Assembly (NCBI RefSeq): GCF_006717095.1
Contig: NZ_VFQE01000001.1
Span: 2,418,001 to 2,482,000, forward strand
Direction of reading: 5' to 3'
DNA: 64,000 nucleotides
From: Blastococcus colisei
Lineage (GTDB): Bacteria > Actinomycetota > Actinomycetes > Mycobacteriales > Geodermatophilaceae
Part shown: piece by piece, positions 5,485 through 49,537 of the stretch
Numbering within the stretch: the first letter of the stretch is position 1
Layout: every line of letters begins with the position of its first letter
Notes under the pieces: model-generated
What the model was told of the DNA's origin: nothing
The model's input: only the letters and a program-made list of their open reading frames with translations
Databases searched by the model: none
Made by a program: the position numbers and the translations under genes

Positions 5485-7434
5485 TCACACCGGGCGCTCG
5501 CTGTCCGTGGCGTCGTCCTCCGCACGGAGAAGAGCGGCGAGCGACATGGCGAGATACCGGAGGGACTGTCTGCGTTCCTCCTGCGCGAGCCGCAGAGCGT
5601 CCAACCCCAGTGCCGAGTAGCGGGTGTCGAACCCGCCCTCCCGCTGGGTGACGACGATCCGGACGTCGCCGCCCAGGCCGGCCCGGGCGAGAAAGCGCAG
5701 CTCGGCTCCCGGTGGTTCGTCCTCTGACCACTCCCGCCGCACGACGGAGGGCTCCTCGGCTCCGTAGACGGCGACCTCGGGGTCCCTCGCCCCGCGGACC
5801 ATCTCCGCCAGGACGTCGGCCAGCTCCTGCGCCGCCGCGACGAGGCGTCGCCGGGAGCCGGGCGGGAGTTCCGCCGCCTGCCAGGAACCGTCGGTCCCGA
5901 GCTCAGGGGTATCGATCGGTCCGTCGTCCAGCGGGCTGCCTGCTCCCGGCGGTTCGGCCCCCCGGGCCGATCGCGCGGCGCCACCGGGAACGGCGTCCTG
6001 ACCATCGGAGAACGCGGGCAACCGCACCGCCGGATCGCCCAGGACCACGAATCCCCGGGCGTCGTTGTTCGCCGTCCACATCGCCGACAGCGAGACGTGA
6101 TCGGGGCGGCGGCCGACCTGCACCTCGTGCAACTCCGCCGACAGGTCGGCGGCGAGCTCGGCGTACCGCTGGTTGACGTAGTCGAAGGCCGAACCGATGG
6201 GGTGGCCGCGCAGCAGCCGGGCCAGGCAGCTGCGGTAGACCTCCGTCTGCCGCCCGGCGCCGGGCCACTTGAAGGAGTAGCCCCACGCCCGGTCGACGTG
6301 GCCGGCGACCGCGAGCGCCGGTCCGTTCTCGTGGCCGAGCAGCCGCCGGGGCAGAGTGGACACGAACGGCTCGGGCGCGAGCCGCTCGGGCGTCGATCCC
6401 GCCTCCCGGTGGGCGAACTCGTCCCACTCGGGAGTGCCGGCTCCGAAGCAGGCGAAGTGCAGGGCGACCAGGCCGTGCACGTGCGCGTCGTCCGGGACGT
6501 CGTCGGCGCCGAGGTAGTGCTCCTCGGTGAACTCGTCGTCGGCGTCCGGTCCCGGCCACTCCTGGCACACCAGCGCACCCTGGCGCCGCGCCTGGTGGGG
6601 ATGGCCGGCCGGCCAGCCCACCCCGTGCCCCGCCGTGAACAGGAGAGCAGGGGACGAGTCGCCGGTCAGGAGTTCGAGCAGGCATGGCTTGGTCGCGTCC
6701 TCGCCCACGGAGGCCCGTACGTCCCAGTCGGCATGGTCGGTCGCCAGCCGCTGGGCCAGCGGTTCCACCAGCTCGCTCCGGCTGAGCTCGGTGGCCCGGT
6801 CGCCGGGGTTCTGGGGGGCGAAGAAGGCGACGCTCCGGCTGCGTGGGACCCCCGTCGTCTCTGCGGCCACCACGCCGTCCGCGTACCCGCGGTACTCGTC
6901 CGGCGTCTGGAAGTACAGCCGGCCCACCGCGTACTGCACGTCGAGCTGGTACTGCACGGAGAAAGGGATGTCGCTCGGACCTCCCACGAGAAGGAGGTAG
7001 TACGGCACGCGCCCGGGGTCCACCGGTCCCGGTCCCGCCCCGTACCGCGCCAGCAACCGGGTCTTCGACTCGCCCGGGCGGTAGGCGTCCTCTCCCCAGA
7101 ACTCGCGGTAGTAGCGGTCGTCACCTCCCGCGCAGACCTGCGCCCGACGGTGGTCGAGCAGTGGGCGCAGCGCGTCCCGGATCGACGGGGCGCAGCTCTG
7201 CGCGAAGAGGACACCCCAACCGACCTGCGACAGGTCGCAGGGATCGCGGCCCTCCCCGGGGCCCAGCACCTTCCTCGTCGCCAGCTCGCGCCGGTAGCGC
7301 AGCTCGTCCAGTTCATGCGGGTCGGGGGCGAAGCCGCGGGCACGTCGGAAGATGGTCGCCGGCGTCACCGGAGGGAGGAGGTAGGAGCCGGTGACGCCGT
7401 CCACGCCGTTGAAGCAGAACACCTGGTCAGCCAC
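5485..7434 (-). CDS. gingipain/caspase-like (C25-type) peptidase
   Basis: 649 residues from a GTG with GAGGGGG 7 nt upstream. Candidate catalytic dyad: His270 in LLFTAGHGVG and Cys329 in ALHFACFGAG, the spacing and flanks expected of caspase-fold C25-like peptidases. VAGHVDRAWGYSF (about 377-389) and VVLGDPAVRLP (about 463-473) also match the end of C25-type domains. There is no signal peptide, so it is probably cytoplasmic. The last 120 residues after a Pro/Gly-rich linker form a separate small domain rich in Ala and Arg that I do not recognise; it may tether the protease to partners. First gene of the minus-strand operon with CHAT-SIR2 and nSTAND-WD40. Family assignment is good; activation by the STAND partner is inference. 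Confidence 0.75.
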   Translation of the reverse strand: MADQVFCFNGVDGVTGSYLLPPVTPATIFRRARGFAPDPHELDELRYRRELATRKVLGPGEGRDPCDLSQVGWGVLFAQSCAPSIRDALRPLLDHRRAQVCAGGDDRYYREFWGEDAYRPGESKTRLLARYGAGPGPVDPGRVPYYLLLVGGPSDIPFSVQYQLDVQYAVGRLYFQTPDEYRGYADGVVAAETTGVPRSRSVAFFAPQNPGDRATELSRSELVEPLAQRLATDHADWDVRASVGEDATKPCLLELLTGDSSPALLFTAGHGVGWPAGHPHQARRQGALVCQEWPGPDADDEFTEEHYLGADDVPDDAHVHGLVALHFACFGAGTPEWDEFAHREAGSTPERLAPEPFVSTLPRRLLGHENGPALAVAGHVDRAWGYSFKWPGAGRQTEVYRSCLARLLRGHPIGSAFDYVNQRYAELAADLSAELHEVQVGRRPDHVSLSAMWTANNDARGFVVLGDPAVRLPAFSDGQDAVPGGAARSARGAEPPGAGSPLDDGPIDTPELGTDGSWQAAELPPGSRRRLVAAAQELADVLAEMVRGARDPEVAVYGAEEPSVVRREWSEDEPPGAELRFLARAGLGGDVRIVVTQREGGFDTRYSALGLDALRLAQEERRQSLRYLAMSLAALLRAEDDATDSERPV

Positions 7435-16808: not shown

Positions 16809-16842
16809 GTGTCCGAGGGGCGACTCGCTACATAGGCGCACG
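16809..16842 (+). repeat. dispersed hairpin repeat, copy A
   Basis: GTGTCCGAGGGGCGAC followed by CGCTACATAGGCGCACG. The inner arms are CGAGT/ACTCG. It joins directly to a LuxR gene fragment that lacks its N-terminus. Confidence 0.8.
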
Positions 16843-24488: not shown

Positions 24489-24522
24489 GTGTTCGAGGGG
24501 CGACTTGTTACATGTGCACACG
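24489..24522 (+). repeat. dispersed hairpin repeat, copy B
   Basis: GTGTTCGAGGGGCGACTTG then TTACATGTGCACACGG. Arms CATGT/ACATG and outer CCGTGT/ACACGG (24478-24523) can pair. It lies between the converging MFS and NACHT-like genes. Confidence 0.75.
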
Positions 24523-24577: not shown

Positions 24578-27500
24578 TCAGCGGCGGGCCCGGTGCGCCA
24601 TGTCCGCCCAGAACCTACGAAGGTCCTCGGGCAAGGTGCCCTGCCAAGGGGCCGCACGTCGTCGAAAATGGCTGCGGCCGAGCAACGTCTGCTGTCTCCG
24701 GCAGAATGCCTCACTCATCTCGGCCCGGTAAGACTGGATGCCCTTCGGTGGATAGGGACACAACTCGAAGGGGCATCCGCCGGCGCAGTTGGAGCCGGGT
24801 TGTACTGCACTCGCGTCGCCGGCCGAACGGTTGGGGTCGAGCGGTGAGCGCTCGCGCTCCAGACAAGGCGGAAGGTCCGGCCGGTTGGCACGCTCAAGGC
24901 GTGGCTCGCGGTCGATGGAGCGCTGTCCGCGGTCAGCGAGGCTGAGCAGCAGGAGTACGTCGGCGACGAGCTGCTGGGCACGCGGGGCCAGGGAACTCCA
25001 CCCCGTGGACGGCGGGATCCAGAGGTTGTGCTTGCGGGGGGCTCCTGGCTGCTTGTTGCGGGAGCCGATCTTCGACGTGACGCCGAAGACGTCGATCCAG
25101 ATGAAGCGCTCCGGCTCACGTGACTCCAGGGCGAGGATGGCAAGCTCCGCGGCCTCCTTGACGAACGGATGCTGGCGGTCCACAGTGCTCCGGCGGTCAG
25201 CGTCGGCAGTCCGGTCTCTCTTGGTCCCAGCCGACTGGAGCCAGTGCCGGATCCGAGTGTCGGGATCGGGACTCCATGCCACCTTTCGCTTGTCCCGGCG
25301 AGCGTTTCGGGGGCGGTCGACGTCGACCACACCGTCGTCCGGCAGAGACCAAAGGGTGAGGGCGTGGAGCAATGTTAGCTGGCCGGCCCAGAATTTGGTG
25401 CGCTTGAGGAGCTCTGCGGCCTGCTCCACCAAGAACGACCGCGCCTCGACCTCCGCGTACGGGTGTCTGCGCCTGCGGTTCGCCGCGTACGTGAAGCCTT
25501 GGGCCAGCGCCACCTCGACCGAGATGGGCAGCCGTAGCTCACGGTCGCCGACCGGGGTCGCGCCCACCCGCCTGACCCACTCCATCAAATTCTTCTGCGC
25601 GTCCCCCAGCGTCTTCTGGGCCTCCTCCGCTGTGGTGGTCGCCCCTCTGCTGCCTGGGCTCACGGAACCGAACAGCAGCGGAGCCAGCCAGGCAGACATG
25701 ATCCGCAGACGCCACCACTGCTCGGAATCAGGATTCTCGTCGTCGTGCAGTGACGCGATCTCGTCGTGCAGCGCCGCCTCAAAATCTTTGTCGAGCTGAC
25801 GGAATGCCCCGTGTCCACTGACCCCCAGTTCCTGGGCGACAGTGTGTCGGACGGCGTAGGACGCCGACTCCCGCCAGCCGATCTGGAAGAGAGCGTGGTA
25901 CGCAGGGGACACCAACTCGGAGAATTCCCTGCGCGCCGCTCGTCGGTCGATCTGCCGGGCGGCATCCCCAAATCTGCGGACGAGGCCGATCTTGGCCTCC
26001 TCCAGCGTGCGCTGGTCCGACGCTGTGAACGTGCCCCAGGCTTCGCTCACGCTCCGCGCGATGTCGTGGTGCTGCGGAGCGTCGAGCACGCTGTCAATTT
26101 CCAACGCCGCGGCGAACATGTCGAGCGCCTTGTTGTCCTTGCGCCGGGACGCCCTCTTCACGAGAGCCGAGACCAGGTCGCGCAGACGGGCAAGCTCCAC
26201 GGCGTCGTCTCCGGTTATCGGGTTGTCCGCGCTGAGCCCGCCCGCACCTATGTCCGGCCCCGCGCGACGCCGCGACATCAGGACCAGGGCGATCAGCAGC
26301 TCCCGGCCCGGGCGTTTCGGGGCCCGGAGGGCGGCATCCCTGAAGTCCTTGCTCACGATCACTTCGTCGAGCAACAGCGAACCGAGGTAGGCCTGGAGGA
26401 TGCTGTGGTCGAACCGCACTTCTTCACCGCGAGCTTCGAGCAGTCCGAGCCGGCTGGCCCAGGAGGCCGCGAGGCGGATCTGCACGGGGCGGATGTCGCG
26501 ACTCTTGAGGAGGGCGGTCACCCGCGAACGGAGCGCCTCGTCCTCGAGGATCTCCTCTTCGTCGTCGCTGTCCTGGGAATGACGCTGGGACTCCTCGGAG
26601 TCGTCGTCGCGCTCGTCGCTCCGACCGTCCCCGCTCCCGTCCTTCATGTGCACGACGTCGGAGTACTTCACCTCCAAAGAGTCGCGTTTCAGTCCCTCGA
26701 TGGCCAGGGCCGCCGTAAGGGTGACGGTGACCAGACGCTCGTCCCGGGTCAGCGGGATTTCCGGCAGGAGGTGGCCGTGGATGAGTGCCCACAGCCACGT
26801 GTCCAGCAGGTTCAGCCGGAGCGCCGAACGGTCCAGGTTCCGCGTGTTCACGCCGCGCGCCTTGACGCCGTCGGTCAAGTGCTGAAGCAGCCCCCTGTCG
26901 TGCAGCTCGCGCGTGATCCTCAGGTAAATGGGTGATTCGGCAATGTCCGCAGTCTCGACGATCCAGTCCAGTCGCTGGCGATCGCCCGCGGCGTCGCGCC
27001 GCTCCAGGTACCCGAGGGATTCGGACTTGCTCAGGGGTTCCAGCTCGAAGATCGCGGCATCCGACCCGCGGAGGGTGTCGTGCGGTCGAGACGCAATGAC
27101 CAGCGGCAGCTTGTCCCGGCGTGCGCGGCGGATGCCGACGCGGACCATCGCCTCACGGTCGTCGTCCGCGCCCTGGTCGCTCAGTGCTTCTTCCATGCCG
27201 TCGGCCAGGACCACGATGCGGTCGTGCTTCCGGAGGTAGCGCCACGCCCGCTCCGCCTCGCCTTGCGAGAGGACCGACTCCTCGATTTCGGACAGGAACT
27301 GCCTCCGTGCCAAGCCCTGGAAGTCGAGCACGCCCTTGTCGGCGTCGCGGAGTCGCACGGGCACCGGAACGGCTTTCCGCGACGCCAGGATGCGGGTCAG
27401 CTCCACGATCACAGCCGTCTTCCCGGCGCCGACGCCGCCTAGAAGGATGTGCGGGCGGCGATCGTCACTGTTGCGGAGGTCGTCAATGATCACTTCGCAG

Positions 27501-28039
27501 ATCTCGTCCCGGCCGACGATGTCGCCCACGATGCTTCCAGCGGTCGGCACGAGTTCGGACGGCCGCTTGACTGCCCTCGCTTTGTACGGCCGTGTCACCG
27601 CCAACAGCCTGAGCAGGAGGAAGAGCGCCGTCGCCGCCCCGACCGTCAGCCAGGTGAGCACGAAGCCGGAAAGGATGCCGCAGGAGGTGCCTACGTCCGA
27701 GCACGTCTCGTCCGGGTTGAAGCGGAACGGGAAGTTCCACGGCTCCCGCAACCAGAGAGCCACGTAGGCGGCCCGGAGAAGCCATAGGAACAGCAGGATC
27801 GCTGCAGTGATCGCAACGATCCACGTTGCCATGGCGCGCTTGCCGCTGCGCCACTTCGCCGGCTTCCGATCAGGGCCGCGTCTCGACGGCCTGATGCTGC
27901 GGTTCGTGCGTCGACGACGAAACGGGCCGACCATCCGGCTCCACCGTCGCTTGAGGCGCAGCGTGATCGGCCCGGGAGCGGCGCGATCCCGAGGTGCCGC
28001 CGGTGTGCGTCGTGGGCCCGCAGATTGTCGTGTACTCAT
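24578..28039 (-). CDS. membrane-anchored NACHT/STAND-like NTPase
   Basis: 1153 residues from ATG 28039. A basic N-terminus (1-70) is followed by two membrane helices (about 73-97 and 124-146) enclosing a short loop with two cysteines (CSDVGTSC). The P-loop is LLGGVGAGKTAV (199-210) and Walker B VVLADGMEEAL (277-287), with a sensor-like VIASRPHDTL near 325. A very acidic segment (EDDDSEESQ, DSDDEEEILED) lies near 480-510, then a long helical region. The C-terminus has a Cys cluster NCAGGCPFELCPYPPKG and SEAFCRRQQ. STAND ATPases of this shape act as switches in defence or signalling. No enzymatic effector domain is visible, and the gene stands alone between repeat copies B and C. Confidence 0.8.
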   Translation of the reverse strand: MSTRQSAGPRRTPAAPRDRAAPGPITLRLKRRWSRMVGPFRRRRTNRSIRPSRRGPDRKPAKWRSGKRAMATWIVAITAAILLFLWLLRAAYVALWLREPWNFPFRFNPDETCSDVGTSCGILSGFVLTWLTVGAATALFLLLRLLAVTRPYKARAVKRPSELVPTAGSIVGDIVGRDEICEVIIDDLRNSDDRRPHILLGGVGAGKTAVIVELTRILASRKAVPVPVRLRDADKGVLDFQGLARRQFLSEIEESVLSQGEAERAWRYLRKHDRIVVLADGMEEALSDQGADDDREAMVRVGIRRARRDKLPLVIASRPHDTLRGSDAAIFELEPLSKSESLGYLERRDAAGDRQRLDWIVETADIAESPIYLRITRELHDRGLLQHLTDGVKARGVNTRNLDRSALRLNLLDTWLWALIHGHLLPEIPLTRDERLVTVTLTAALAIEGLKRDSLEVKYSDVVHMKDGSGDGRSDERDDDSEESQRHSQDSDDEEEILEDEALRSRVTALLKSRDIRPVQIRLAASWASRLGLLEARGEEVRFDHSILQAYLGSLLLDEVIVSKDFRDAALRAPKRPGRELLIALVLMSRRRAGPDIGAGGLSADNPITGDDAVELARLRDLVSALVKRASRRKDNKALDMFAAALEIDSVLDAPQHHDIARSVSEAWGTFTASDQRTLEEAKIGLVRRFGDAARQIDRRAARREFSELVSPAYHALFQIGWRESASYAVRHTVAQELGVSGHGAFRQLDKDFEAALHDEIASLHDDENPDSEQWWRLRIMSAWLAPLLFGSVSPGSRGATTTAEEAQKTLGDAQKNLMEWVRRVGATPVGDRELRLPISVEVALAQGFTYAANRRRRHPYAEVEARSFLVEQAAELLKRTKFWAGQLTLLHALTLWSLPDDGVVDVDRPRNARRDKRKVAWSPDPDTRIRHWLQSAGTKRDRTADADRRSTVDRQHPFVKEAAELAILALESREPERFIWIDVFGVTSKIGSRNKQPGAPRKHNLWIPPSTGWSSLAPRAQQLVADVLLLLSLADRGQRSIDREPRLERANRPDLPPCLERERSPLDPNRSAGDASAVQPGSNCAGGCPFELCPYPPKGIQSYRAEMSEAFCRRQQTLLGRSHFRRRAAPWQGTLPEDLRRFWADMAHRARR

Positions 28040-28836
28040 GGCCGGAGTCAGACAACCCGTCGACCGTCACCGCGCCGTCACCGCTGCCGTACTCGGACGG
28101 CTCGGCACGGACCCGCAGGGAAGAGCCGCCGGAGGTCAGCAGCGACATGTCGCTATTCGTTGGGGGCTTGCATGCGAGAAACCCGACGACGAGAGTTGCG
28201 TTGCACCGGAACCCTGCCTACGCCACGACTGACGACCATGACAGTGAAGTTCGAGGCGGCGCTCTGCAGCGCTGACGCGGTTCGAACGGTGGTGTCCGAG
28301 GGGGGACATTGGTACATACGCACACGCCTCTGCTCCTGACTCGAAGTGCCACTCCTGCGCTGTCGACGGCGACCGCCCCAGGGGGCCGGCTGTTGGGCGG
28401 TGTTGAAGGTCGGCGCGCACCATCCGCATGCGCCGGCTCGTTCCATCGACCGGCTGCCCAGCCGGCCTACTCGTGGCCGACGAAGGGTTGCCCGAAGCCC
28501 CTCGAGGATTCGCCGACGGCGCCGCGACTATTCGCCCGGAGTGCACTGGTCGTCCTCCGGTGTCACACCACGGCAGGCGGCGGCAGACCCGAGTCCGCGC
28601 GAGGATCTGATCCGGCTGCTGGCCGGCTTCCCGGCCGGCGGTCCCGGGCAGACGAACCCCGACCGGCTACGTGCCGCTCTCGGCTTGTAAGGCGTCGCGC
28701 TTTCGAGCGGCGCCGAGCTCCCGCTCGCAGCAGCCCCCTCCCGTGGTTCGGGACGGGGGGCTGCACCGAGGCCACCGGGGGGCGACGGCGGGAAGTGGTC
28801 CGGTGCTGGGCGACCTGAATGGCGCGGAAGCGCGAG
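28040..28836. other. 797-base region without a convincing gene
   Basis: Holds the promoter of the NACHT-like gene and repeat C. On the plus strand a frame ending at 28690 reads SPREDLIRLLAGFPAGGPGQ and TNPDRLRAALGL, which looks like a natural protein C-terminus, but nothing upstream in that frame resembles a fold. It may be a gene remnant. Confidence 0.45.
28292..28326 (+). repeat. dispersed hairpin repeat, copy C
   Basis: GTGTCCGAGGGGGGAC, then ATTGG and TACATACGCACACG. Inner arms TGTCC/GGACA. The GGGGGGAC block is identical to the 3' end region of the tRNA-Leu gene at 49450-49537. Confidence 0.8.
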
Positions 28837-31355: not shown

Positions 31356-31604
31356 GTGCTGGACCTCGTGGCAGTGACTGCGGAGGCCGGCGGGAACTGG
31401 ACAAACCGGTGGGCGTGTGCGAGCAGCGAGCGGACCGCCGTCGTGCTTGCGACGCTGGCCGATCACCGCATCGCCGGCGGATCGGTCTACGACGCGCTGG
31501 TCGGGGCCGCGGCCGCCGAGCACGGGCTCAGGCTGATCAGCCGCGACCGTCGTGCGTTCGATACCTACCGCGCACTGGACGCGGCGGTCGACATGATCGA
31601 TTGA
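31356..31604 (+). pseudogene. VapC-type PIN toxin, C-terminal fragment
   Basis: From TAVVLATLADHRIAGGSVYD (about 31434) the frame continues ALVGAAAAEHGLRLISRDRR and AFDTYRALDAAVDMID, the second half of a PIN domain with its late Asp residues (SVYDAL, SRDRRA). The first catalytic Asp and the early helices are missing; the 26 residues before it have no PIN similarity. No VapB antitoxin precedes it. Treat as a remnant. Confidence 0.7.
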
Positions 31605-31778: not shown

Positions 31779-31812
31779 GTGTCCGAGGAGCGAGTCGCTA
31801 CATATGCACACG
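31779..31812 (+). repeat. dispersed hairpin repeat, copy D
   Basis: GTGTCCGAGGAGCGAG then TCGC and TACATATGCACACG. Inner arms ACTCG/CGAGT (31774-31795) and outer GCGTG/CACGC can pair. Confidence 0.78.
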
Positions 31813-36052: not shown

Positions 36053-36265
36053 ATGGCCAAGACCCTGGTCGACATCCCTGCGGACAAGCTCGCCCGAGCT
36101 CAGGCGCGGCTCGGCACAGCTACCAAGCGGGAAACCGTCGAGCGGGCGCTGGATCTGGTGCTGGAGCAGGCTGAACAGCGAGAGCTCATCATGGCCGTGG
36201 CAGCGGGACAGGTCTCGTCGCACTTCACTCCGGAGGTCCTGGGCAAGGTCAGGCCGGGTGCCTGA
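36053..36265 (+). CDS. vapB: VapB-type antitoxin
   Basis: 70 residues from ATG 36053 (GGGGAG upstream). AKTLVDIPADKLARAQARLG then TATKRETVERALDLVLEQAE is the ribbon-helix-helix of VapB/DUF2191-like antitoxins, with a C-terminal toxin-binding tail. Its stop overlaps the start of the PIN gene by 8 bases. It should bind its own promoter, perhaps the GATATC/GATATC repeats at 36000-36020 (GATATCGAGCCGTGATATC). Confidence 0.85.
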   Translation: MAKTLVDIPADKLARAQARLGTATKRETVERALDLVLEQAEQRELIMAVAAGQVSSHFTPEVLGKVRPGA

Positions 36266-36686
36266 AGCGATCCTCGACAACTTCGCGTACGCCCGCATTG
36301 CTCGGCACGCTTCGGTCCGCGAGGCCGTCCTCGACTACCTGGACGGCCCACTCGACACCCTCCGGTCAGTGCTGGTGCAGCGGTTGGAGATCTGCACCTC
36401 AGTGCGGAACATGGCGGAGTTCGACGCCGAGATGCAGGCGCTTGCTGCGATGCCGCTGCTGGAGGACACGCTTCCCGCGGTGGGCGTTACGGCGCAGTCG
36501 CTGCAGCGAGCGCTCGTGCAGCGCGGCACCCATAGTGGCCCGAAGGTGGTGAACTTGCTCATCGCCGCAACCGCACTGGTGCACGATGCGGAGATCCTCC
36601 ACTACGACAGCGACTACGACTTGCTTGCTGCTGCCGAGCCGAGGCTGCGGACCCGGTGGATTGTGCCGCGGGGGAGCGTGGCGTAG
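36258..36686 (+). CDS. vapC: VapC-type PIN ribonuclease with altered catalytic residue
   Basis: 142 residues from GTG 36258, overlapping vapB. PIN signatures: AILDNFAYARI (first Asp), NMAEFDAEM (Glu), and LLIAATALVHDAEILHYDSD YDLL (late Asp residues). The family normally has Asp before LLIAATA; here the codon is AAC (Asn) in KVVNLLIAA. That Asp is one of the metal ligands, so nuclease activity may be reduced or lost. Otherwise full length and in an intact operon with its antitoxin. Confidence 0.82.
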   Translation: MPEAILDNFAYARIARHASVREAVLDYLDGPLDTLRSVLVQRLEICTSVRNMAEFDAEMQALAAMPLLEDTLPAVGVTAQSLQRALVQRGTHSGPKVVNLLIAATALVHDAEILHYDSDYDLLAAAEPRLRTRWIVPRGSVA

Positions 36687-37020
36687 CTGCCGTGAGCAGC
36701 CGGCGAACCCCAGCCGACGGCGCCGCCTCGATCGACCAGATGCACACCCACGTCGGTGTGCATCGGCTGGTGTCGGAGAGGTGACTCGGTACATACGCAC
36801 ACGTCTCTCGTGCGGGGGCTGACCTTGAGCGCGACCATCGACCCGGTTGCACGGCTCGGGCGGCTCCTGTGCGGATCTGTTCAGCACCGGTGGCGGTCGA
36901 GTTCCGCGGTCCTCTCCGCCGGCGCGTCCCCATGGCGAAGTAGCTGGATCGGCGAACCAGTGCAGGGAGAGCGTGGAGGCTCCGGGCGCTCTGCCCGCCG
37001 GGCGGCTGGAGGCTCGGCGC
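36687..37020. other. 334-base region containing repeat E
   Basis: Lies between the converging vapC and Wadjet remnant. Apart from repeat E and its extended left flank I see no gene or terminator. Confidence 0.5.
36756..36803 (+). repeat. dispersed hairpin repeat, copy E (extended)
   Basis: Core at 36770-36803: GTGTCGGAGAGGTGAC, TCGG, TACATACGCACACG. The left flank GGTGTGCATCGGCTG (36755-36769) matches the flank of copy F and the sequence just beyond the 3' end of tRNA-Leu. Outer arms GTGTGC/GCACAC (36756-36761 with 36797-36802) pair. Confidence 0.8.
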
Positions 37021-37465
37021 TCAACGGTCGGCCGCGTGGGCGGCGAGGACATCGTCCATGACCCGCTCCTCATGAACGATGCCACGGTGCTCGTTGAACG
37101 CGATGGCCAAAGCCGGGTCCCACGGCGTGGGGGGCGCGGCTACCGGGTCACGAGGTAGCTCGACCCCCGCGGCCGAGGCCTCGTCGAGAGCTCCGACGTA
37201 GGCCGACGCCGTCATCAGGAACGGCTCGCACCCGGCGTCCCGAGCACGGTTCACCATTCCCAGGCCGGCCGCATCGAAATCGCCGTGGTACCGCAGCCGC
37301 GCCCCGCATGCGCGGAGTTGGGCGATGGCCAAGCTCGGGGCCGTCGTCGGGTTGCCGTTGGTGCAGAGGAACGCAGCCACGAGGTGGCGTTCGGTCGCTG
37401 CCTCCACCAGCCGCGGGTTCTCCACCACCAGCACCGGGGTCCCGGGCGCGACGGTCAGCGGCGGC
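37021..37465 (-). pseudogene. JetD (Wadjet type II, DUF2399) C-terminal fragment
   Basis: Frame PLTVAPGTPVLVVENPRLVE continues AATERHLVAAFLCTNGNPTT, LRACGARLRYHGDFDAAGLG and MTASAYVGALDE to a stop at 37021. The VVENP, CTNGNP and YHGDFDAAG motifs are those of the TOPRIM-like nuclease domain of JetD (TIGR02679). The N-terminal half is missing, and the sequence joins directly, in another frame, to JetB-like coding at about 37465. Non-functional as it stands. Confidence 0.8.
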
Positions 37466-38227
37466 ACCCTCGGCCCGGGCCTCGATGATGAACCCGAACA
37501 TCTCCTCGCAGTAGCGCGACTCCTCGCCGAAGCGGCGGCGCAGTTCTGCCCAGTCTTCCGGCGCCACGTCGTCGGCATGCAGCACCGGGTCCTCGACCAG
37601 CCGCCTACGCAGCGAGGCCCGGCCGGTGCCGTCGCCCGCGGCGCGGGCGAGCAGTTCCTCTGCCGAGCGGGCACCGACGAGCGCAGACGCCGGCAGCAGG
37701 GCCATCCGGTCGTTGCGGACCTCGAGCAGGGCGTCGGCTTCCGCGTCGGTTCGTAGCCGTGACCGACCGGTCGAGCTCGCGCACCACGTCGTGCTCCACC
37801 AGCCAGCGCAGGGCGGTGACCGGGGCCCGGCGTTCGCTCGTGGCGCCGTCGAGGGAAATGCCGGCGTCGGCGGCTGCGGAGCGAACCTGCAGCACCAGGT
37901 CGCGCAGGTGATCCGGTCCGGCCCGGCCGCGGTGGCGGCGAGTACGAGCGCGAGCAGGGTGTACTCGCGCGCGGTGAACGGACGCTGCGTCGGGGTGCGC
38001 AGCGGCCGGTCCGCCGGGATGTGCCCCGACTTGACCAGTCGCGCGGTGTCGGTGCCGACCACGAGACGGTAACCCAGGCGCTGGGTGAACCAGCGGTCCA
38101 GCTGCTCGCCGTGGCGACGGATGAGCAGGAACAGCGGGCGATCAGCCTCGGCGGTGCGCGACGGGCGGGTCAGCAGCGCCCGGGCCGCGCCGGTCAGCTC
38201 GCCGGCGCGCTGCGGATCGTCGTGCAT
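37466..38227 (-). pseudogene. JetB (Wadjet type II, DUF2398) with frameshifts and lost C-terminus
   Basis: ATG 38227 forms a TGATG overlap with the JetA tail. ELTGAARALLTRPSRTAEAD, RHGEQLDRWFTQRLGYRLVV and RPFTAREYTLLALVLAATAA match the N-terminus of TIGR02678 proteins. A frameshift near 37910 moves the match to HLRDLVLQVRSAAADAGISL, then LRWLVEHDVVRELDRSV; a second near 37755 returns to RLRTDAEADALLEVRNDRMA and WAELRRRFGEESRYCEEMFG. Similarity stops at about 37470, where JetD begins. Supports the SMC-like Wadjet complex in intact loci; dead here. Confidence 0.8.
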
Positions 38228-38310
38228 CAGTCCTCCGGGGCCGCGCTGATCGTCACGGTCAGGTCGATCAACCGCAGCGCACCGGCGGGAGTGCGCACGG
38301 TGGTGGACCC
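38227..38310 (-). pseudogene. JetA (Wadjet type II, DUF2397) C-terminal fragment
   Basis: GSTTVRTPAGALRLIDLTVT then ISAAPED and TGA, resembling the end of TIGR02677 proteins. The TGA overlaps the jetB ATG as in intact operons. Nothing of the preceding ~450 residues remains upstream. Confidence 0.65.
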
Positions 38311-38466
38311 CGCGCGCCGAGGCAATGGAACGCAAATGAGGGACGATGACGATGAGTGACCGAAGGTAGTTGCCTAATCGCGTTTGCGCGGGGCAGAGTC
38401 GACGGAGGCAACGTCAAGCGCCTACGCGCAAGCCCGATCGGCGCCGTTTCGCATGAGCGCTAAAAG

Positions 38467-38482
38467 CCGCTCAGAGGAGCGG
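38467..38482. terminator. short hairpin, possible terminator
   Basis: CCGCTC-AGAG-GAGCGG, a 6-bp stem with a 4-base loop, preceded by AAAA. On the minus strand this gives a GC stem followed by CTTTTA, so it may stop transcription from the antitoxin gene side before the Wadjet remnant. Confidence 0.45.
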
Positions 38483-38680
38483 AGGGTTATTGGTTCGAGA
38501 ACAACCGGGGGAGCCAACTGAGCCGCCCCTCACCTGCGTAGATGCAGCGTGAGGAGCCGTTCGCCTTTGTGAGCACTTTGAGGGCTCTTCACATTCCAGA
38601 GTGTAGTCGCGGTCTGAAGCCGCCGGTCTCGAGCCGCGATCTGGCGATGTAGTTGGTGAGGTTGCGGGACCCGAGCGTGG

Positions 38681-38732
38681 CCTGATTCGCGGACCCGGAC
38701 CGAATCGGCACGATTCCATACTTTCGCAAGAA
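38681..38732. repeat. two-copy repeat with palindromic core (other copy 48667-48710)
   Basis: About 43 of 48 bases agree with the copy at the start of the TOTE gene. The core GAATCG-GCA-CGATTC (38702-38716) is a perfect inverted repeat here and has one mismatch in the other copy. It lies downstream of the antitoxin at 38778 on the same strand. Confidence 0.7.
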
Positions 38733-38777
38733 CCGCACCCGGCGGCAGGCCGCGCGGCGCTGCATGCCGCGCAAGTG

Positions 38778-39062
38778 TTAGTGACCGGTGGTGACCGGCT
38801 TCTCCCTGCCGAGCAGCGCGCGGTACTTCTGCCGCGCGGCTTCGCCGCTGGTCCCCACTGCCTCGCCGATGCGATCCCAGGGGACGCCTGCCTGCCTGGC
38901 AGCGGCAACAGCCTCGCCGAGTTCGCTCTCGGCGAGGGCTCGGCGGAGGGCAGCAGCTCGGACCCCTGCCTCTTCCTTGGAGACGGCCGGAGCGAAGTCC
39001 TCCTCGAAGACGCGAGACAGTTCCTCGGCCTGATTGACGATCTCCTCGTAACTGCGCGGCAT
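38778..39062 (-). CDS. HTH-type antitoxin paired with a broken toxin
   Basis: 94 residues from ATG 39062 (GGAGG, 9 nt spacer). A helical N-terminus (RSYEEIVNQAEELSRVFEED) is followed by ALAESELGEAVAAARQAGVP then WDRIGEAVGTSGEAARQKYR, a helix-turn-helix of the type in which 'W..IG..LGTSGEAARQRY' recognises DNA. It follows the toxin gene by 5 bases, the reversed toxin-first order. It is intact although the toxin frame is broken. Confidence 0.75.
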   Translation of the reverse strand: MPRSYEEIVNQAEELSRVFEEDFAPAVSKEEAGVRAAALRRALAESELGEAVAAARQAGVPWDRIGEAVGTSGEAARQKYRALLGREKPVTTGH

Positions 39063-39067
39063 CGTGA

Positions 39068-39308
39068 TCACCCTCCCTCTAGATACTTGCGCCGGGCCCT
39101 CATGGCATGGACGACCACCAGAAGACCGTCCTCACTCATGAGGTAGCTGACTTCCACCATGGTCGCCGTTGCGAGCCGGGCCGACGGCCATGCTGAGCTC
39201 GTGGTCGCCCTGGTCCGGATAGTCGAAGACGGCGTTGCGAAGCGCGTGGGCGATGTCGTCGTCCGCGACGCCGTGCTTGCGTGCGGCGGAGAAGATCTCG
39301 ATCCGCAC
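39068..39308 (-). pseudogene. small toxin (DUF4258/BrnT-like), frameshifted
   Basis: From GTG 39308: RIEIFSAARKHGVADDDIAH then ALRNAVFDYPDQGDHELSMA and VGPARNG. Near 39163 the frame shifts; the other frame carries on TMVEVSYLMSEDGLLVVVHA and MRARRKYLEGG to a stop at 39068. Together they form the usual ~80-residue toxin that precedes this HTH antitoxin in actinobacteria ('ARKHGV', 'GPAR', 'HAM R' motifs). One net base is displaced, so the toxin is probably dead. Confidence 0.7.
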
Positions 39309-39313
39309 CCACG

Positions 39314-39325
39314 CAAGTTAACTTG
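39314..39325. promoter_or_regulatory. palindromic operator of the toxin-antitoxin operon
   Basis: CAAGTTAACTTG, a perfect 12-bp palindrome 5 bases upstream of the toxin GTG. TTAACT within it can serve as a -10 element, making the transcript leaderless. This is the expected place for antitoxin autorepression. Confidence 0.6.
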
Positions 39326-39450
39326 TCGTCATCCGTCTCCAGCTACCTTGGATGCACACTGGCGGTGAACACCACGGCTCATGACGCAGCAGAGGCGGCG
39401 GCGGAAGATCGGCGGCTCGCCATAAGCAGAAGGCCAGTGCTGTCAAGCCG

Positions 39451-39498
39451 GTGTGCATCAGCCGGTGTCCGAGGGGCGACACGCCACATACGCACACG
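39451..39498 (+). repeat. dispersed hairpin repeat, copy F (extended)
   Basis: Core at 39465-39498: GTGTCCGAGGGGCGAC, ACGC, CACATACGCACACG. Inner arms GTGTC/GACAC (39465-39469 with 39478-39482); outer arms GTGTGC/GCACAC (39451-39456 with 39492-39497). The left flank GCCGGTGTGCATCAGC is the same as that beyond the tRNA-Leu 3' end. It separates the toxin operon from the divergent acyl-CoA dehydrogenase gene. Confidence 0.85.
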
Positions 39499-39587: not shown

Positions 39588-41534
39588 ATGTCGTCGCATC
39601 CATCGTACGAGCAGTCGAAACAGGTCGCCGAGGCCAGCCGCGAGACCGAATGGATCAAGCCGTCGTTCGGCAAGGAACTCTTCCTCGGCAACTTCCGCCT
39701 CGACCTGATCCACCCCCAGCCGGAGCTCGACGCGGCCGCGGTGAGGAAGGGCGAGACGTTCCTCGAGCGCCTGCGCGCCTTCCTCACCGAGCATGTCGAC
39801 CGGCAGCAGATCGAGCGCGAGGCGAGGATTCCCGACAGCGTCATCCAGGGCCTCAAGGAGCTGGGCGCCCTCGGCATGAAGATCCCCGAGGAGTACGGGG
39901 GTCTCGGGCTGAGCCAGGTCTACTACAACAGGGCCCTCGCGATGGCCGGCACCTGGCACTCGTCGATCTCGACGCTGCTCTCTGCGCATCAGTCGATCGG
40001 CCTGCCCGAGCCGCTGCGGCTGTTCGGCTCCGAGGAGCAGAAGCGCGCTTGGTTGCCCAGGCTGGCCAGGGACCACATCTCGGCGTTCCTGCTCACCGAG
40101 CCGGACGTCGGCTCGGACCCGGCGCGCATGAGCACGACCGCCGTCCCGACCGATGACGGCACCGGCTACCGGATCAACGGCACGAAGCTGTGGGCGACCA
40201 ACGGCGCGATCGCCGACGTGGTCGTGATCATGGCCGTCGTCCCGAAGTCCGACGGCCACAGGGGCGGTATCACCGCATTCCTCTGCTCGTGCGACCGCGA
40301 GGGCATCACGGTCGAGCACCGCAACGAGTTCATGGGGCTCAAGGGGATCGAGAACTCGGTGACGCGCTTCGACGACGTCTTCGTCCCCCGTGAGGACGTC
40401 ATCGGTGGCGAGGGCAAGGGTCTGCGGATCGCGCTCACCACGCTGAACACCGGGCGACTGTCGCTGCCGGCGTTCTGCCTGTCGGCGACGAAGCACTCGC
40501 TCAAGATCGCGCGGGAGTGGTCGACGGAACGGAAGCAGTGGGGGCAGCCCATCGGCAAGCACGACCCGATCGCGCAGAAGCTCGCCTGGCTGGCAGGGAC
40601 GGCGTTCGGCCTCGAGGCGGTGCTCGACGTGTCGAGCCGCCTGGCCGACGACAAGCGCAACGACATCCGCATCGAGGCCGCCCTCGCCAAGCTCTACGGG
40701 TCGGAACTCGGCTGGACCGCCGTCGACGAGATGGTCCAGATCCGCGGCGGTCGCGCCTACGAGACCGCCGAGTCGCTCGAGCGGCGCGGTGAGAAGCCGG
40801 TACCGGCCGAGCAGATGTTGCGCGACATGCGCATCAACCGCATCTTCGAGGGATCCACGGAGATCATGCACCTGCTGATCGCCCGTGAGGCCGTCGACGA
40901 GCACCTGAAGGTGGCGGGGGACCTGGTGCTCGGCGACTCGAGCCCGGCCGACAAGGCCAGGGCCGCCGCGAAGGCGGGCGCCTTCTACGCCAGGTGGTTC
41001 CCGACGCTGACCGTGGGCGCCGGCCAGCGTCCCGGCTCCTTCTCCGAGTTCGGCGACCTGGCCAGGCACGTGCGCTACGTCGAGCGCCACTCCCGCAAGC
41101 TCGCGCGTTCGACCTTCTACGCGATGGGTCGCTACCAGGCGCGCCTCGAGCAGAAGGGCCACCTGCTCGGCCGGCTCGTCGACATCGGTGCCGAGCTCTA
41201 CGCCATCGCGTGCGCGTGCGTCTACGCGGACACCATCGGGCGAGAGCAGCCCGACCGCCGACACGAGGCCATGGAACTGGCCGACCTGTTCTGCGGTCAG
41301 GCCCGGCGTCGGGCCGACCGGCTGTTCACCGAGCTGTGGGCCAACGACGACCACGCTCAGTACAAGGCCGCGCAGAAGGTGCTCTCCGGCCGATACGCAT
41401 GGTTCGAGGAGGACGTGCTCGACCCGGCGGGTGATGGTCCGATGATGCCGACGCACGCACCGCCGGCCGCGGAACAGTTCGAGGTGTCGCCAGCGGTGGC
41501 GGCGCCCACGGTGAGGGCCACGGCCACCCAGTAG
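39588..41534 (+). CDS. acyl-CoA dehydrogenase, long VLCAD/ACAD9-like form
   Basis: 648 residues from ATG 39588 (GGGGGTGA upstream). The extended architecture has a catalytic ~430-residue domain and a ~190-residue C-terminal helical domain, as in very-long-chain dehydrogenases. FAD and substrate motifs: AFLLTEPDVGSDPARM near 170, INGTKLWATNGAIADVVV near 195, RKQWGQPIGKHDPIAQKLA near 310, and EMLRDMRINRIFEGSTEIMH near 415, where the Glu of FEGSTEI is the likely catalytic base. Introduces the C2=C3 double bond in beta-oxidation. Next to a wax ester synthase and a lipase, consistent with storage-lipid turnover. Confidence 0.92.
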   Translation: MSSHPSYEQSKQVAEASRETEWIKPSFGKELFLGNFRLDLIHPQPELDAAAVRKGETFLERLRAFLTEHVDRQQIEREARIPDSVIQGLKELGALGMKIPEEYGGLGLSQVYYNRALAMAGTWHSSISTLLSAHQSIGLPEPLRLFGSEEQKRAWLPRLARDHISAFLLTEPDVGSDPARMSTTAVPTDDGTGYRINGTKLWATNGAIADVVVIMAVVPKSDGHRGGITAFLCSCDREGITVEHRNEFMGLKGIENSVTRFDDVFVPREDVIGGEGKGLRIALTTLNTGRLSLPAFCLSATKHSLKIAREWSTERKQWGQPIGKHDPIAQKLAWLAGTAFGLEAVLDVSSRLADDKRNDIRIEAALAKLYGSELGWTAVDEMVQIRGGRAYETAESLERRGEKPVPAEQMLRDMRINRIFEGSTEIMHLLIAREAVDEHLKVAGDLVLGDSSPADKARAAAKAGAFYARWFPTLTVGAGQRPGSFSEFGDLARHVRYVERHSRKLARSTFYAMGRYQARLEQKGHLLGRLVDIGAELYAIACACVYADTIGREQPDRRHEAMELADLFCGQARRRADRLFTELWANDDHAQYKAAQKVLSGRYAWFEEDVLDPAGDGPMMPTHAPPAAEQFEVSPAVAAPTVRATATQ

Positions 41535-44932: not shown

Positions 44933-44966
44933 GTGTCCGAGGGGCGACACGCTACATACGCACACG
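44933..44966 (+). repeat. dispersed hairpin repeat, copy G
   Basis: GTGTCCGAGGGGCGAC, ACGC, TACATACGCACACG; the copy closest to consensus. Inner arms GTGTC/GACAC. It starts 5 bases after the terminator. Confidence 0.85.
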
Positions 44967-46283: not shown

Positions 46284-48698
46284 CTACCGGACGAGGCGGC
46301 GCGGGTCCGGAAAGCCGAGGCTGGTGTAGCCGGGGGCGCGCTTGCTCAGCGATGAGGCGAGGACGCCGGTCGCGACGTCGTGGTAGTCGTGCACCTCGGC
46401 GGTGGACTTGCCGGGGAACGGGCGGAGGATGCGGCCGGCGTACTGCACGAGTCGGCCCTTGAAGGCGATCGGTGCGGCGAGGAAGAGCGTGTCGAGCGCC
46501 GGGCAGTCGAAGCCCTCGCCCACGTACGGGCCGGTGGCGACGACCAACAGTGGCGGTCCGTCGGTCTGCGGCACGAGCCGGGCGAGCGCTGCGGCCCGGG
46601 ACTTCGCGCCCATGCCGCCACGCAGGACGACGGGCTCGTGGCCCCGCTGGCTGAGTTCGGCGACGAGCCGGTCCAGGTGTGCGGTCCACTGGGTGAGCAC
46701 GAGGCAGTGCCTGCCGCGGGCGAGCGCGGCGACGACGTCGTCGGTGATCTGGCCGGTGCGGGCGTCGTCCGCGACCAGGTCGCGGTAGATCGCCGCGATG
46801 CCGCCGGGGGAGGAAGGCTCGGCGTCCCCGGCGTAGCGGTAGCCCGTGGAGTGGACGTGCAGGACCGGTTCGGGTGTCTGCGAGTCCGGGGACCGGTTGC
46901 CCAGGGTGCCGGTGGGCGGTGGAACGAGGGTGTGGCGGATTGGCCCCAACTGCAGGGCGATGAGGTCGTCGAGCTGGTCGCGCCGGTAGGGGGTGGCGGT
47001 GAGCCCGAGCCAGCGGCGGGCCGGGATCTGCCGCACGGCGTGCTCGAAGGCGGCGGCGGGCACGTGGTGGCACTCGTCGACCACCACCAGGCCGTAGTGG
47101 CTGGTCCAGCCGGCGATGTCATCGCTACGGGCGAGGGTCTGCAGGGTGGCGACGTCGATGATGCCGGTGGTCTTGCCGCGGCCGCCGCCGCGCTGCCCGG
47201 CCTTCACGCCGAGCAGTTCGCCGATGCGGGCGCGCCACTGGTCGGCCAGGGCTTTGCGGTCGACGAGCACGAGGGTGGGGACGGCGTGGTGAGCGATCAG
47301 CGCGCAGGCCATGACCGTCTTGCCGGCCCCGGGCGGGGCGACCAGCACGCCGGCTTCTTGGTCGGCGAGGGCCTTGAAGGCTTGCTGTTGCTCGGGATCG
47401 AGTTCTGCGGCGAACTCGAAGGTCTGCGTTTCGCCGGCGGTCCGTTCGTCGGTGAGCTGGAGGCGGCTACCGGCCTGTTCCACAAGGGCTGCGAGCCGGT
47501 CCTGCAATCCGCGCGGCAGGAGCAGGTCGCCGGTGAGTGTCTCGTCGTAGTTGCGCAGGAAGCGTGGGGTGTCCCAGGTGGAGGCACGGCGCCGTTGCCG
47601 CTCGTAGAAGACCGGGTTGGGCATCGACGCCGCGTGCTTGAGTGTGGCGAGCAGCGCTGGGGGCAGCGCTGCTGTTTCGACCGTGATCCTGGCACCGAGT
47701 CGGGCGTGGACAACAGCTGGCGGCTGCACCGCGATTTTCGTGGAGGTGGGGGAGCGGAGCCGGTTCACCTCGGCGCCGACGGCGACCTGGCCGAGTCGCT
47801 GCGCCAGCCGGTCGACCTCCTTGGGTGTGAGTCGGCCGAGGCTGGACAGGTAGGACCACTGGTCCTCGTGCGGCTCCATGGTGGCCAACTCGAGGAACAC
47901 GGTGGCTCCGCGGCGGCGGGCGCGGCCCTGCAGGGGCGCCGCGATGAGATTGCCGAGACCGCCGACTGCGAGGACGTCCTGGGAGGGGAAGAGCCGGTCG
48001 TAGCTGGCCAGGTCCATCCGCCCGCGCACGGCGATCGCCTCGCGCAGGAGTCCGGTGCCCACCTGGCGGGCAGTGGCCGCGGGGACGGACGCGGTGAAGA
48101 ACAGCCAGACATGTGCGCCGAGACCTGAGCGGGACACCTCCAGCGCCGCCGATGCGCCGACCGTGCGGGCGGCCTTGAGGTAGGCGAGCGCATCCAGCAT
48201 GGCGGCGGGGCCGTCGAAGTCGGCGGCCAGCCAGTGGCAGCGGTCGCCGTCCAGCAGCGGATACAGGCCCAGCTCCAGCTCGCCAGACAGATGGGCAGTG
48301 ATGACCTCGTCTGTCAATGGCAGGTACTCCCTGTCCGCGGCCGGCACGCCCTTGCGCCAGCCGCCGCGCACCGCGGGCAACCAGCCTCCGCGGCCGGTTC
48401 GGGCGTTCTCCCACCGCAGCGCGTACACGTCGGTCCGGGCGGCGAACAGGCTGGCGAAGAACGCGACCTTCGCCGCCGGCGTGGAACCGGCGTGCGCCGG
48501 TCCCGGCTGGCCGTCGAAGACGCCGGTCTGCACGGGGCCGGGTGGGCGCGCCTGCCGCGGCGTCAGTTCCAGCAGTCGGAGGAGTCGGGCGTTCTCCGCT
48601 CGCAGCCGGGCGACGTCCTCGCGCAGCGCCGACAGCTCGTCGTCCAGGCCGATCAACGGCAGCGTGCCCTGATCAGCGGACCCGGACGGAATCGGCAC
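46284..48698 (-). CDS. TOTE-type primase-helicase protein
   Basis: 804 residues if GTG 48698 is used; GTG 48809 and TTG 48657 are alternatives and no ribosome-binding site decides. A leucine-rich coiled coil ([20 protein letters not shown]) precedes an archaeo-eukaryotic primase-like domain: HWLAADFDG near 160 (acidic metal site) and [15 protein letters not shown] near 190 (sxH), with [16 protein letters not shown]. Residues about 430-800 are a superfamily 2 helicase: Walker A APPGAGKT (454-461), VVVDECHH (about 540), [11 protein letters not shown], and ILRPFPGKS late. This matches the primase-helicase of TOTE conflict systems, linked to nucleic-acid defence. No nuclease gene adjoins. Confidence 0.87.
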
Positions 48699-49449: not shown

Positions 49450-49537
49450 TGGTGTCCGAGGGGGGACTTGAACCCCCACGCCCGATAAAGGGCACTAGCA
49501 CCTCAAGCTAGCGCGTCTGCCATTCCGCCACCCGGAC
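49450..49537 (-). tRNA. tRNA-Leu (anticodon GAG)
   Basis: 88 bases including an encoded CCA. The acceptor pairs GTCCGGG with CTCGGAC, with discriminator A. The anticodon stem-loop is CTAGC-TTGAGGT-GCTAG, so the anticodon is GAG. The long variable arm (TGCCC...GGGCG) marks a type II tRNA, and the T-arm is GGGGG-TTCAAGT-CCCCC. The sequence beyond its 3' end shares GCTGATGCACACCGGC with the flanks of repeats E and F. Confidence 0.95.

Follow-up and report, generated by a model that had tools for sequence, protein, structure and literature searches.

A decayed Wadjet type II operon was found at positions 37021-38308, on the minus strand, of the 64,000-nucleotide stretch of DNA analysed here (the window). 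Read 5' to 3', the remnant consists of the end of jetA, the start of jetB and the end of jetD. We propose, with a probability of about 0.86, that the locus is a decayed element lacking an integrase, which once had jetC, jetA, jetB and jetD as its cargo and which lies in a tandem-accretion island at tRNA-Leu(GAG). The locus is located between two repeats, E and F, as the first-pass annotation had stated. What that annotation missed was the nature of the repeats: judged from their sequence, both look like attachment-type sites of tRNA-Leu(GAG) islands, and this would account for the place and the flanks of the Wadjet locus.

The assignment of the jet genes was supported by profile searches. The C-terminal Toprim part of jetD (37021-37461, minus strand), the last third to half of the gene, matched positions 238-379 of the 382 positions of TIGR02679 in the NCBIfam search (E = 8e-25), DUF2399 in Pfam (5.9e-28) and JetD2 in PADLOC (3e-39). 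The N-terminal two thirds or so of jetB (37462-38227, minus strand) matched DUF2398 (Pfam, 1.2e-38), TIGR02678 (NCBIfam, 3.9e-18) and JetB2 (PADLOC, 1.6e-48), and its out-of-frame middle matched DUF2398 (0.0037) and JetB2 (1e-7) on its own. The TIGR02679 and TIGR02678 matches did not reach the cut-offs of these families, which fits their being fragments, while the main Pfam matches to DUF2398 and DUF2399 exceeded theirs. The jetA tail (38227-38308, minus strand) comprises approximately 27 codons including the stop, close to the 28 previously estimated. It had no match in NCBIfam or Pfam and a weak one to JetA2 in PADLOC (0.0038). Its identity was secured by a DNA alignment to the intact operon L061, in which it corresponds to positions 7040-7121, because this alignment (855 columns, 87% identity) crosses the jetA-jetB boundary and has its first gap well inside jetB.

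The type II PADLOC models scored best for the remnant, and the homology to DUF2398 and DUF2399 likewise indicates type II descent. Searching the whole genome gave one match to TIGR02679 and one to TIGR02678, both at 37021-38308, and none to TIGR02680, the jetC profile; therefore, no second Wadjet of that type was found in the genome. Of the four genes expected of a functional Wadjet II, jetC is thus absent from the genome by this profile and jetA is reduced to approximately 27 codons at the locus. The frames are not intact either, since jetB has three one-base deletions and the jetD joint is out of frame. Wadjet activity has presumably been lost at this locus. Profiles from all three collections and the DNA alignment to L061 hence bear out the earlier description of a collapsed Wadjet type II locus in which the SMC gene is gone and the C-terminal nuclease half of jetD is left. 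The profile check proposed with that description succeeded for TIGR02678 and TIGR02679 and failed for the jetA tail in NCBIfam. A short form conserved as an intact gene, which would have spoken against a collapse, was not seen among 15 other species of the genus.

The nearest relative of the remnant is L061, on contig NZ_NVPT01000060 of Geodermatophilus chilensis, which is 79% identical over the jetD part, the best of 35 loci. At the protein level the identities are 72.7% for jetB and 78.5% for jetD. The four genes of L061 matched the JetC2, DUF2397, DUF2398 and DUF2399/DUF3323 models across nearly the full profiles and are arranged in the order jetC-jetA-jetB-jetD. The same order was observed in all nine loci mapped (L061-L069), which are the nine closest of the 35 relatives found and come from records of Geodermatophilus, Pseudonocardia and Frankia; in L062 jetC is split into two pieces, one at each end of the contig, and for L064 the alignment covered just the later part of the gene. 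Four loci of the window's family (L054, L055, L057 and L058), which are 30-38% identical to L061, have the order A-B-C-D. In these 13 mapped loci the two type II gene orders track sequence similarity. Since the clade order is C-A-B-D, the SMC gene was not formerly between jetB and jetD, and the order A-B-C-D with jetC lost from that position, which the first-pass annotation implied, is not supported. As a side observation, L062 (QHBZ01000062.1) is a metagenome contig of 8014 bp with little besides a Wadjet II operon. Its ends join in frame within jetC without overlap, indicating either a circle or an assembly artefact, and the start of jetC was not recognisable in its 4940-5270 region.

Compared with L061, jetB and jetD are joined by a single deletion of 1120 bp, and a 5-bp sequence (37457-37461, minus strand) is present at both ends of the deletion. 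The fusion of jetD to jetB reported earlier is therefore real at the DNA level, but the joint is out of frame. A second break, at 38308, removed jetC and the greater part of jetA, and no similarity to L061 was found beyond it up to repeat F. Because jetC lies upstream of jetA, at least two events are needed, the 1.12-kb deletion between jetB and jetD and a separate loss at the 5' side. The jetB piece is frameshifted, as had been noted; its precise form is three one-base deletions (near 37909, 37760 and 37750), which jointly restore the frame, and so a frame of 395 amino acids stays open.

Substitutions private to the window were scored against L061 and L062 and compared with an expectation of two thirds at codon positions 1 and 2, a null which ignores base-composition bias. 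Only 11 of the 44 private substitutions in jetB were at positions 1 and 2 (p = 2e-8), and 24 of 49 in jetD (p = 0.008). The intact jetB copies gave 9 of 30 for substitutions private to L061 and 18 of 47 for those private to L062, and the window jetB resembles them in this respect. The test is hardly informative for jetD, whose intact copies gave 14 of 22 in L062 and 11 of 29 in L061. The jetB pattern looks like divergence gathered mostly under constraint, followed by comparatively recent decay.

Repeats E (36770-36803) and F (39465-39498) belong to an array of 34-bp elements with sharp ends, of which there are six copies in the window, all on the plus strand. The others are at 16809-16842, 24489-24522 (a diverged copy), 31779-31812 and 44933-44966. 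The first 12 bp of the site equal the reverse complement of the tRNA-Leu(GAG) 3' end, and unbroken identity between site and tRNA is limited to these 12 bp. The tRNA that anchors the array is located at 49450-49537 on the minus strand, with the 12-bp core at 49452-49463, at its 3' end. A search of 61 genomes (the window's own and 60 relatives) gave the 34-bp site in 13, namely 13 of the 37 belonging to the window's family and none of the 24 outside it, whereas the backward pattern used as a control had no match in any of the 61. A weight matrix, built partly from the very copies it scores, detected 34 sites at a score of at least 16 in the fetched regions and none in the same regions reversed. 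On contigs listed with two or more copies, all copies were co-oriented. The tRNA-Leu(GAG) was downstream in the expected orientation in all ten genomes with site and tRNA on one contig (G000, which is the window's, G002, G005, G009, G010, G015, G022, G026, G031 and G034), at distances reaching 120 kb; this count excludes G003, G004, G029 and G. chilensis, for which the tRNA was located on a different contig or not found. E and F were at first viewed as a dispersed intergenic repeat, and this view gave way to that of an integron-like array, itself later displaced as described below. A folded hairpin at site F was also considered and rejected, as the single copy folded as DNA was no better than shuffles (z = 0.06). 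Half of a 34-bp site was observed at 28314-28328 (plus strand), possibly a worn attachment site outside the six. By eye, the left flanks of sites in several genomes fall into a few types shared between genera, two of them hairpin- or terminator-like and one with a VapC end, and some right flanks likewise fall into shared types.

Integrase genes were found beside this tRNA and beside some of the sites in relatives. In G010, G031 and G002, fragments of one tyrosine integrase family are located approximately 100 bp upstream of sites. A longer copy, with a PF00589 match, adjoins the tRNA in G022 and G010. With the G022 integrase as a query, matches at E of 1e-30 or better were obtained in 44 of 112 family genomes. 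These include six of the 13 array genomes (G002, G004, G005, G009, G010 and G022), and the window's genome gave no match at this threshold. Among 30 loci retrieved for these integrase matches and inspected, 23 contained tRNA-Leu(GAG), and two of the other seven carry an array site, a weak one in L188 and one in L196. By coordinates, integrase matches end 73-116 bp from a co-oriented array site in five of ten cases in G083 and three of five in G085. In G006, G013 and G061 the integrase is beside the tRNA, yet no array site was present within three mismatches; these genomes, like the missing match in the window's genome, speak against a tight link of integrase and array.

The intervals between neighbouring sites, or between site and tRNA, were then counted in eight genomes for sites with a score of at least 40; one site in G002, three in G031 and one in G026, with matrix scores of 10-40, were left out. 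A PF00589 match was found in four of the 28 intervals, all four of them next to the tRNA, which fits accretion with the newest element beside the tRNA keeping its integrase. Several qualifications apply to this count. G010 contributes just a single interval, and of the four with a match, two measure 59 and 120 kb; intervals of 62, 59 and 120 kb are too long to count as single elements. The match in the tRNA-proximal interval of G002 belongs to a different integrase family, and the integrase at C2:301478 of G002 gave no match when it was compared with the array integrase. A fragment of the array integrase missed by PF00589 is located in a non-proximal interval of G002, so that integrase traces are present in five of 28 intervals and not all of these are proximal. 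In the window's array, no PF00589 match was found. An integron-like array had been considered as the main reading, and it was displaced by the tRNA-Leu(GAG) match and the integrase neighbours.

In G. chilensis, an intact jetCABD operon is flanked by two array sites at a distance of 10.06 kb from each other (L061 positions 506 and 10570, both minus strand). One end of this cassette has a VapC-like frame (570-992, identified by eye) and the other a transposase remnant; the array integrase was not found in L061 by tblastn. The tRNA and the Wadjet cassette of G. chilensis are on separate contigs. Using the L061 JetB as a query, nine of the 112 family genomes gave a match. The identity was 75% for the window's genome, 100% for G085, which was taken as the same assembly as that of L061 because the site coordinates are identical, and 38-43% for the others. 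This assignment of G085 would place the window's family as Geodermatophilaceae. The JetB clade is thus present in two of the 112 genomes, in both within such site arrays. The sequences from E to jetD and from jetA to F have no counterpart in the G. chilensis cassette, and we therefore stop short of deriving the window cassette from it by loss of pieces. Within the genus, with one genome compared per species, a TIGR02679 match was obtained in three of the 15 other species. G009 and G010 have all four jet genes in the order A-B-C-D at approximately 30-36% identity, while G002 yielded no more than jetC and jetD, at approximately 28-31%. The distant jetD of G002 (C2:324928-325785), together with its jetC, has the last array site (295324) on one side and tRNA-Leu(GAG) (354628) on the other, and is perhaps in the same island.

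The stretch from the jetA break to repeat F (38309-39464) has no jet sequence and includes a toxin-antitoxin-like pair at its F end (38674 to approximately 39330, minus strand), in which the toxin frame is broken. The same pair, with the toxin frame open, is beside an array site in G009 (L110; 86% DNA identity over 659 bp). It is plausible that the deletion which took jetC fused the Wadjet element with a neighbouring toxin-antitoxin element. Toxin-antitoxin genes recur at cassette ends in the window: a VapB/VapC-like pair (36053-36686, plus strand; VapB 4e-5, PIN 0.025) is directly before site E, and a short PIN fragment (31356-31604, plus strand; 0.00035) is directly before the site at 31779. 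Other cargo was observed as well. The tRNA-proximal interval has a conflict-system-like protein of 804 amino acids with AEP-TOTE primase and helicase parts (46284-48698, minus strand; AEP-TOTE 9.5e-74 in Pfam, PrimPol 1e-74 in PADLOC). A protein of 1084 amino acids right after the site at 24489 (24578-27832, minus strand), possibly a STAND-type ATPase, matched NACHT only below threshold (0.0025) and gave nothing in PADLOC at 0.001. Right after site F is an acyl-CoA dehydrogenase gene (39588-41534, plus strand), the closest relatives of which, in G002 and G004 (86-87% identity), have other neighbours, more than 200 kb off the array in G002 and approximately 12 kb before an array site in G004. 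When the flanks of the remnant were sought in these two genomes by way of this gene, only the gene itself matched (86-89% DNA identity), besides the array-site stretches of G004.

Taken together, we suggest that the operon jetC-jetA-jetB-jetD would have arrived as cargo of an integrative element, which a phage-type tyrosine integrase would have inserted at the 3' end of tRNA-Leu(GAG). Further elements inserting there, one after another, may then have moved the older ones outward, giving the co-oriented row of sites by tandem accretion, and the enzymes that moved these elements were probably of the array-integrase family. The integrase-free element between E and F would later have decayed: a deletion at the microhomology joined jetB to jetD, a separate break took jetC along with the bulk of jetA, and jetB was scrambled by one-base deletions. 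This order of the decay events is the one that we infer.

Several other explanations were weighed against decay of an accreted element. The direct junction of jetB with the jetD tail could be read as an A-B-C-D operon from which a single deletion removed the SMC gene, and this order does exist in the distant clade of L054, L055, L057 and L058. It is nevertheless highly improbable, given that the remnant has 72.7% and 78.5% protein identity in jetB and jetD to the C-A-B-D operon L061, to which the A-B-C-D loci are only 30-38% identical, that jetC is upstream of jetA in every one of the nine clade loci mapped, and that the joint is short of only 1120 bp. The Toprim half of jetD might alternatively be retained as a standalone nuclease gene, as its frame of 217 amino acids (37021-37674) is open and positions 1 and 2 hold 24 of its 49 private substitutions (p = 0.008 against two thirds). 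We regard this as very unlikely: the first 70 or so residues of the frame are out-of-frame jetB sequence, such a form is kept by none of the three species, among 15 others in the genus, in which TIGR02679 matched, the intact L062 jetD with 14 of 22 makes the substitution test a weak one, and the constraint may be older than the break. Some long-read errors typically take the form of one-base deletions, and those in jetB could be read errors at a locus that is truly intact. An error of sequencing or assembly is the least probable of the explanations, because it leaves unexplained the 1.12-kb deletion and the loss of up to approximately 5.7 kb of jetC and jetA, in place of which other sequence with the toxin-antitoxin pair is present. 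The genome is moreover listed as 100% complete in four contigs and has no TIGR02680 match.

The remaining explanation concerns how the cassettes moved. In an integron-like capture, cassettes without integrases would be acquired in trans and would not be relics of autonomous elements. This would agree with the 24 of 28 intervals that have no PF00589 match (23 if the G002 fragment is counted), with the G. chilensis Wadjet cassette, in which the array integrase was not matched, and with the absence of the array integrase family from the window's genome at E of 1e-30. The site, however, begins with a copy of the tRNA 3' end, the one copy folded gave a hairpin no better than shuffles (z = 0.06), and integrase genes or fragments beside some sites indicate that some elements carried their own integrase; capture of this kind is accordingly considered unlikely. 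A bolder picture, likewise unlikely, is that tRNA-Leu(GAG) in Geodermatophilaceae serves as an integron-like bank of integrase-free defence and toxin-antitoxin cassettes, whole Wadjet operons included, which a trans-acting integrase exchanges between genera, with the window cassette dying in place.

On the accretion reading, a lone wreck becomes an example of the carriage and loss of an anti-plasmid system, intact between sites in one species and broken in another. The 34-bp site also provides a marker for the tRNA-Leu islands of Geodermatophilaceae, which makes an automated inventory of their cargo possible, and a second gene order, C-A-B-D, was shown in one clade of type II Wadjet. No published description of a tRNA-Leu(GAG) array in Geodermatophilaceae was found in a partial literature search.

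Wadjet types and their Toprim effector are summarised in PMC10586767. The locus shares with Wadjet type II (jetABCD; TIGR02677-02680, DUF2397/2398/2399) its protein families, gene neighbours and reading direction, and differs from an intact system in lacking jetC and most of jetA, in its frameshifted jetB and in its halved jetD. With integrons the array has in common a row of co-oriented sites and exchanged cargo, whereas it is anchored by a tRNA, has intervals of several kb and holds genes on both strands; the single-strand folding of integron attC sites was not observed for the region of site F (z = 0.06, one copy). The ssrA islands of Dehalococcoides, as portrayed in PMC3146451, have many direct repeats of the ssrA 3' end downstream of the gene, with a conserved motif adjoining, and many of these islands have no integration module. 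The likeness lies in the row of direct repeats of a stable-RNA 3' end and in integration modules on some islands only. The difference is that Dehalococcoides uses ssrA, a serine recombinase and rdhA cargo, whereas in the window's family the target is tRNA-Leu(GAG), the enzyme is a tyrosine integrase and the cargo is mixed, with defence and toxin-antitoxin genes included. In PMC5704250, CIMEs are elements without integration or transfer genes that keep their att sites, and they undergo accretion with incoming elements. The E-F element has putative attachment sites at both ends, with the 12-bp identity to tRNA-Leu(GAG), as would be expected of a CIME or an accreted island, and, as CIMEs are described there to do, it neighbours other elements at the same target.
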